From Haloarchaeobius amylolyticus (lineage in GTDB: Archaea > Halobacteriota > Halobacteria > Halobacteriales > Natrialbaceae), in assembly GCF_026616195.1 (NCBI RefSeq), contig NZ_JANHDH010000001.1:868001-932000 (forward strand): DNA of 64,000 bases, read 5' to 3'. The stretch's first letter is position 1. Every line of letters starts with the position of its first letter. The position numbers were made by a program, and so were the translations under genes. The notes beneath the pieces were generated by a model. The model was not told where the DNA came from, ran no database searches, and saw nothing but the letters and a program-made list of their open reading frames with translations. Below, one piece after another: positions 11,929 to 59,567 of the stretch.

Positions 11929-11983
11929 ACGTCACATATGGCGGCCGGCGACCGTAATCAGCCACCCTGACCGTGGGGGCCGG

Positions 11984-12102
11984 GCGTTCAAATACCAGAA
12001 CGGCACCAGTCCCGCCGTGCGCTGATGCCAGCCGCGCGGGGAACACGGCGGGTGTGCGACGACCCTCCGCGCGGGCAGCCCGACCCTCGTCGCCTGTTCG
12101 CC
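11984..12102 (+). ncRNA. Structured repeat, copy A (candidate small RNA)
   Basis: This 119-nt element matches 59453-59567 in four blocks: GCGTTCAA (11984-11991), GTGCGCTGA (12017-12025), GGGTGTGCGAC (12050-12060) and GTCGCCTGTTCGCC (12089-12102). It can fold into two perfect stems, 12011-12019 with 12044-12052 (9 bp) and 12056-12062 with 12087-12093 (7 bp). The second stem is kept in copy B with different bases. An AT-rich box at 11954-11960 is about 26 nt before the 5' edge. Strand is inferred from that box, which also serves as the reverse TATA box of the BrkB-like gene. It may equally be a structured DNA repeat. Confidence 0.5.
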
Positions 12103-59246: not shown

Positions 59247-59452
59247 GCAGCATACTCCTTTCAGGGACCGCCTTAACCTACCGACACCCACAACACTGAC
59301 CTCGTTTCGTCGTCAGGGACACGGAGGACGGAAGCGGCGAACCAGTCGATTTCGGGCGTCTCGTGGCCTCGATAACGGTGTCACCCGAGGCCGTCGCCTC
59401 CTCGCGGCGCGAACGCTGTCATAGATATCGGCAAGGTGTGCGCCACCACCGA

Positions 59453-59567
59453 GCGTTCAAGGAGGAAGCCGCGGCCAGCCCCGGCGTGCGCTGAGAACCA
59501 TCACGGGACGCGTCGCGGGTGTGCGACACGGCCGTCTCGTGCCCTGACTCCGTGTCGCCTGTTCGCC
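59453..59567 (+). ncRNA. Structured repeat, copy B (candidate small RNA)
   Basis: This 115-nt element matches 11984-12102. The conserved blocks are GCGTTCAA (59453-59460), GTGCGCTGA (59486-59494), GGGTGTGCGAC (59517-59527) and GTCGCCTGTTCGCC (59554-59567). Its main stem is 59523-59531 with 59550-59558 (GCGACACGG/CCGTGTCGC, 9 bp); copy A has GCGACGA/TCGTCGC at the same place, so paired differences keep the stem. The other stem is imperfect here (CCCG/CGGG plus GTGCG/CGCGT around a 2x2 loop). An AT-rich box (CATAGATATC, 59420-59429) is about 26 nt before the 5' edge. It occupies the gap between metY and the F420-type gene. Confidence 0.5.

Follow-up and report, generated by a model that had tools for sequence, protein, structure and literature searches.

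A dispersed family of haloarchaeal loci predicted to encode pseudoknotted small RNAs that open with a leaderless start-X-stop frame

Minigenes of the lambda bar type are two-codon minigenes. The mg2 minigene of axe-txe, which reads ATGactTAA, is another small frame of this kind, and the toxicity of overexpression has been reported to be highest for two-codon open reading frames (ORFs) (PMC8708949). Among haloarchaeal small RNAs, s194 of Haloferax volcanii is a ribosome-associated RNA (rancRNA) of about 100 nt that targets cstA (PMC6104027); it is not conserved in other haloarchaea (PMC3956466). For DNA exchange, the Ups and Ced systems of the Sulfolobales have type IV pilus genes and genes of VirB4/HerA-type ATPases under common control (PMC11868833). 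Haloarchaeal promoters have a described BRE and TATA consensus, and the leaderless fraction is 72% (PMC4983044). To judge from their sequence, the loci analysed here almost certainly form a dispersed multicopy family whose members have a promoter and a pseudoknot.

Copies in the window, the genome and the order

The initial annotation had described two dispersed copies of a structured element in the window, that is, in the whole 64-kb stretch of DNA that was analysed. Both are present at the places given. A covariance model (R1) built from 17 copies matches exactly two sites, copy A at 11987-12102 (plus strand, 91.6 bits, E=7e-22) and copy B at 59456-59567 (plus strand, 101.9 bits, E=2e-24), and finds nothing else in the window below E=0.08, the third-best match having E=0.083. 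Since copies A and B both belong to the model seed, the rest of the family is the stronger evidence against chance. The dispersal was confirmed by a search of the whole genome but the count was not, as the genome holds 36 full copies with E-values up to 3e-11. Below these comes a sharp gap, followed by weak matches to the 5' part only, and no decayed copy was found in this search between E=3e-11 and E=3e-4. All 36 copies lie on the two largest contigs and none on the smaller ones, and the closest long intragenomic matches are about 76–79% identical. The proposed search for further copies also returned 36 in a congener and revealed carriers among 159 of the 293 sampled genomes of the order, representing 47 of 87 genera (a per-genome count of 15 in this survey stands for at least 15). 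Named carriers include Haloarchaeobius, Halobaculum, Halomarina, Halobellus, Halostella, Halopenitus, Halorarius and Haloarcula pellucida. Haloarchaeobius is probably also the genus of the window, as locus L065 of G004, a genome of that same genus, has the same score as L133 of Haloarchaeobius sp. FL176. In a phylum-wide sample, all of the matches listed fall in the same order.

Promoter and pseudoknot

The two copies in the window are made up of the following features.

11981-12016, plus strand: predicted promoter of copy A, with a TATA-like TTCAAATA at 11987-11994 and a conserved downstream box up to -1
12017-12102, plus strand: predicted RNA of copy A, 86 nt with the conserved 3' tail included
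12017-12025, plus strand: two-codon ORF of copy A, GTG CGC TGA, read from the sequence
12032-12041, plus strand: P2 5' strand of copy A, CCGCGCGGGG, pairing with 12065-12074
12056-12062, plus strand: P3 5' strand of copy A, GCGACGA, pairing with 12087-12093 and crossing P2
12065-12074, plus strand: P2 3' strand of copy A, CTCCGCGCGG
12087-12093, plus strand: P3 3' strand of copy A, TCGTCGC
12094-12102, plus strand: conserved tail of copy A, CTGTTCGCC
59449-59485, plus strand: predicted promoter of copy B, with a TATA-like TTCAAGGA at 59456-59463 and the downstream box
59486-59567, plus strand: predicted RNA of copy B, 82 nt with the conserved 3' tail included
59486-59494, plus strand: two-codon ORF of copy B, GTG CGC TGA, read from the sequence
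59502-59510, plus strand: P2 5' strand of copy B, CACGGGACG, pairing with 59533-59541
59523-59531, plus strand: P3 5' strand of copy B, GCGACACGG, pairing with 59550-59558 and crossing P2
59533-59541, plus strand: P2 3' strand of copy B, CGTCTCGTG
59550-59558, plus strand: P3 3' strand of copy B, CCGTGTCGC
59559-59567, plus strand: conserved tail of copy B, CTGTTCGCC

A promoter model (R3) matches copy A at 11981-12019 (E=1.3e-7) and copy B at 59449-59488 (E=3.3e-10), both copies being part of its seed. The promoter was also examined blindly, with a model of the RNA alone that has matches in many genera. In the consensus of 108 copies collected in this way, the RNA is preceded by a BRE-like stretch of CGAA type (about -37 to -33), by a TATA (-31 to -26) and by a conserved box near CGGGGCCA (about -17 to -10), and RTG stands at +1. 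Each RNA locus is thus preceded by a predicted promoter of its own, in which BRE, TATA and box stand at a fixed distance, and I infer from it both the transcription of the RNA and its start site. This assignment displaces the 5' ends given in the initial annotation. The bases 11984 and 59453 are promoter, the predicted +1 positions being 12017 and 59486, and in the GCGTTCAA block that had been taken for the RNA 5' end, the first block TTCAA is the TATA box (TTCAAATA or TTCAAGGA), with the predicted +1 lying 30 nt downstream. An AT-rich box described 26 nt upstream does not hold up either, the sequence there not being conserved among copies. At the other end, a terminator scan found no U-rich terminator, so the 3' end of the RNA is uncertain.

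Within the RNA of about 80 nt, the elements follow one another in the order P2a, L1, P3a, P2b, L3, P3b and tail. The GCGAC/GTCGC stem (P3) has 7 bp in copy A and 9 bp in copy B, as claimed, but a longer second helix that crosses it (P2) had been overlooked, and the pair forms a pseudoknot. The two interleaved helices, of about 10 bp (P2) and 7 bp (P3), are present in all 36 copies of the genome and correspond to the H type, P3a almost abutting P2b. Covariation of the stem, first proposed from two samples, is strong for both helices across 46 diverse and 100 further copies. In the 46 diverse copies, two-sided changes occur in 17 of 17 pairs, 89.5% of the cells are paired, the covariation score is 0.542 against 0.202 after shuffling, and none of 500 shuffles and no slid version reaches the observed value in any pairing measure; the 100 further copies behave similarly, with two-sided changes in 10 of 10 pairs of P2. 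A third helix (P4, GCGGGUG with UGUUCGC), between the L1 motif and the tail, was considered and found unsupported, as the 100 further copies contain no two-sided change in it. Ordinary minimum-energy folding does not detect the pseudoknot (z=0.18) and is uninformative. G-U pairs outnumber A-C pairs in the stems (45 versus 8, and 31 versus 14), an excess that points to the plus strand as the acting RNA. It is highly probable that the element acts as RNA.

Comparison of orthologues indicates which parts of this RNA are constrained. Substitutions affect 9% of stem positions and 22% of the others, and the pseudoknot is more conserved than the promoter. The slowest parts are P3 (5–6.5%), the tail CTGTTCGCC (6%) and the L1 motif (10%), while the loop L3 evolves fast (38% substitutions, 14% gaps). 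Since the conserved L1 motif (GCGGGUGU), P3 and the conserved 3' tail (CUGUUCGCC) are both slow and alike in all copies, one common partner is likelier than many antisense targets, and the L1 motif and the tail are probably read by such a partner. Antisense seeds specific to each copy, in the linker that precedes the pseudoknot or in L3, were rejected because these are the fastest-evolving parts of the RNA; the idea that the tail pairs with 16S rRNA was dropped because chance complementarity is high.

A start-X-stop frame at a constant distance from the pseudoknot

The predicted RNA begins with a start codon, ATG or GTG, in 198 of 210 distinct copies, and in 192 of these 198 the third codon is a stop (186 TGA, 5 TAA and 1 TAG). 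The two-codon leaderless ORF predicted from these sequences is one in which start-X-stop is conserved while X varies. Among 25 orthologous pairs, positions 1 and 2 of codon 2 differ in about half; by contrast, first-base differences in the start codon are of the A/G swap type only, and differences in the stop amount to another stop (TAG/TGA) or to a stop in one partner of the pair. The disparity between codon 2 and the start and stop codons is significant (p=4e-10). The ORF is not absolutely required, since 12 of the 210 copies have no ATG or GTG start (ATC in 9) and 5 start-bearing copies have no early stop. In three loci of the genome itself (L045, L054 and L096), ATC replaces the start codon and the stop is kept, and in the orthologous pair L045/L146 one partner has ATC and the other GTG.

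The position of the pseudoknot relative to this frame varies little. P2 starts between +14 and +18 in 206 of 215 copies, with a median of +17 and a typical start at about +16/+17, and the linker from the stop to the pseudoknot differs between orthologues by 37% substitutions and only 1% gaps. Constant spacing combined with a free linker sequence points to a measuring device. In toeprint experiments, a ribosome whose P site holds the start codon has its leading edge at about this distance. On this basis, engagement of the ribosome might be the function of the RNA, which I put forward as a tentative proposal. A different reading, itself rather unlikely, is that start-X-stop merely insulates the RNA: the promoter or initiator would demand RTG at +1, the immediate stop would prevent ribosomes from unwinding the pseudoknot, and the RNA of the regulon would act through a protein that reads the L1 motif and the tail rather than on the ribosome. 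This reading would fit the slow evolution of L1, P3 and the tail, the retention of the stop in the ATC variants and the same RTG at +1 of the protein genes that share the promoter (see below). However, a constant spacing of +16/+17 with a free linker is more than an insulator needs.

Inheritance and the shared promoter

All copies lie in intergenic gaps near stop codons. Of the loci of the congener that were checked, 28 of 30 are orthologous on both flanks to loci of the genome under study; a comparison of genera shows mostly different loci, which adjoin unrelated housekeeping genes. The downstream gene is convergent in 25 of 33 copies of the genome. No match was found in viral contigs, searched with one exact pattern, or in plasmids, searched with two queries. 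Orthologous loci, lack of plasmid and viral matches and convergent neighbours together indicate an old, stably inherited family with slow birth and death rather than a mobile repeat.

These data bear on the initial alternative of a MITE-like repeat, and more generally on a non-autonomous mobile element, MITE-like or akin to the omega-RNAs of IS200/IS605, that folds by chance. Dispersal of the copies, their different places in different genera and a similar promoter on one TnpB gene (E=0.001) would fit such an element. Yet the loci are orthologous between congeners, neither decayed nor near-identical recent copies were found in the genome, all copies reside on the two largest contigs, and the stems are under constraint. 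Moreover, the surroundings of that TnpB gene contain no significant match to the family RNA (R2 model), for which reason an omega-RNA of TnpB was also rejected. A mobile origin of this kind is accordingly very improbable. The TnpB gene itself (L110, G000:C1:709040-709071) stands alone, and its promoter, which is outside the model seed, resembles that of the regulon described below. A cis-acting element, either a 5' leader (riboswitch) or a 3' UTR element of the adjoining genes, is slightly less plausible still: it would agree with the position of every copy in an intergenic gap near a stop codon, but the downstream gene is mostly convergent and not co-directional, so that the element is not a leader, the neighbours are unrelated housekeeping genes that differ between genera, and the copies have their own promoter.

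Examined gene by gene in this genome, the same promoter was found upstream of 11 leaderless protein genes, with the start codon (ATG or GTG) at +1 (shifted by a base in one of them); the weak matches to the 5' part only are protein genes of this type. A 40-nt model of the promoter alone returns the RNA loci, these genes and a few new ones including the TnpB gene, the RNA loci accounting for 36 of about 47 strong matches in the genome. That proportion would fit promoter boxes that serve as decoys for the regulator, the RNA being incidental, a proposal that scarcely survives the observations that the pseudoknot is conserved best, above the promoter, and that G-U pairs exceed A-C pairs. The promoter-sharing genes encode a type IV pilus-like ATPase, archaeal type IV pilins, a HerA/DUF87 ATPase, a MinD-like ATPase and nuclease-type products (a NucS N-terminal domain with a zinc ribbon, Cas4-like and PLD-like); their Pfam domains are T2SSE, Pilin_N, DUF7283, DUF7310, DUF7382, DUF87, NucS_N, Cas4, PLD and TctA, and several of the proteins match known families weakly.

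Several of these genes deserve mention in their own right. A type IV pilus-like cluster with several regulon promoters (L099-L100 and L287, G000:C2:630000-645000; DUF7283, DUF7310, TadA-like ATPase) resembles an uncharacterised haloarchaeal DNA-uptake locus. At L103 (G000:C2:101700-102030), the genes of a DUF7382 protein and a HerA/DUF87 ATPase diverge, each with a regulon promoter, and the NucS-N plus zinc-ribbon protein and the Cas4-like exonuclease (L101 and L107) are both under such a promoter. Further protein genes (L283, L284 and L286; 202, 203 and 214 aa) lie near a regulon-like promoter, which is weak at L286.

DUF7283 is present in 144 of 159 RNA-positive and in 55 of 134 RNA-negative genomes, a comparison that ignores kinship, and, among RNA-positive genera, in 44 of 47 (p=2e-8, a statistic that ignores phylogeny). 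Fifteen RNA-positive genomes lack it. Conversely, 55 of the 199 genomes with this marker, chiefly from the family to which the window belongs, have DUF7283 without the RNA, which indicates that the regulon can do without the RNA. The RNAs in all likelihood share a regulon with the pilus genes. A putative role of the regulon in DNA uptake, or exchange, is suggested with fair confidence by the domain names and by analogy with Ups/Ced. Because the promoter is common to the RNAs and to pilus and DNA-handling genes, the RNAs are probably induced together with the DNA-uptake programme.

A candidate regulon RNA and its relation to known systems

The explanation that I favour, with moderate confidence, is that of a multicopy trans-acting small RNA of this regulon, which ribosomes would meet as a leaderless mRNA of two codons, its pseudoknot lying at the entry channel. 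Each RNA would be expressed from a promoter of its own, with BRE, TATA and CGGGGCCA box, alongside the pilus and DNA-handling genes, and the transcript of about 80 nt would fold into the H-type pseudoknot with P2 and P3 nearly stacked. A common partner would recognise the L1 motif GCGGGUGU and the tail CUGUUCGCC, and the ribosome would load the RNA as a pseudo-mRNA at the leaderless start codon. The immediate stop might then shield the pseudoknot from read-through; alternatively, the complex of ribosome and RNA might itself be the effector and damp translation in the induced state. More speculatively, and at present doubtfully, dozens of leaderless pseudo-mRNAs from dispersed genes, co-regulated with a machine for DNA uptake or exchange and engaging ribosomes with the pseudoknot at the entry channel, would constitute a new class of RNA that floods the induced cell and slows or reprograms translation. 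The layout of start-X-stop followed by a pseudoknot would in any case be a testable kind of RNA control over ribosomes. If real, with at most about 36 copies per genome and a presence in about half of the sampled haloarchaeal genomes, the family would be among the largest of archaeal small-RNA genes, and its promoter, which ties the RNA to pilus and DNA-handling genes of seemingly undescribed regulation and function, would provide a handle on haloarchaeal DNA uptake.

The family appears undescribed. In Rfam release 15, the window matches tRNA only, eight copies with their flanks give nothing at the gathering threshold, and copy B has no match at E<=5. No description of the family or of its regulon was found in the haloarchaeal small-RNA literature searched, which contains few subscription papers, so that individual members may have been mentioned in experimental work elsewhere. 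The initial suggestion of an undescribed haloarchaeal sRNA family is thus sustained at the level of sequence by the copies, the promoter, the covarying helices, the excess of G-U over A-C, vertical inheritance and the lack of an Rfam match.

Comparison with described systems brings out what the family has in common with each. The omega-RNAs of IS200/IS605 are likewise archaeal structured RNAs for which pseudoknots are discussed (PMC12558985), whereas the family has no TnpB adjacency and is inherited vertically. The family also differs from Ups/Ced, which has type IV pilus and ATPase genes under common control but in whose abstract small RNAs go unmentioned (PMC11868833), and the haloarchaeal regulon is for its part defined by promoter and domains only. 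Like the family, s194 is a haloarchaeal small RNA, but it is not a dispersed family, and its description mentions no pseudoknot (PMC6104027). Two-codon minigenes share with the family the succession of a start, one codon and a stop, and in both the engagement of the ribosome would be the point. Known minigenes, however, have a Shine-Dalgarno sequence and are found in mRNA leaders, whereas the predicted ORF of the family is leaderless and opens an independent structured RNA present in dozens of copies.
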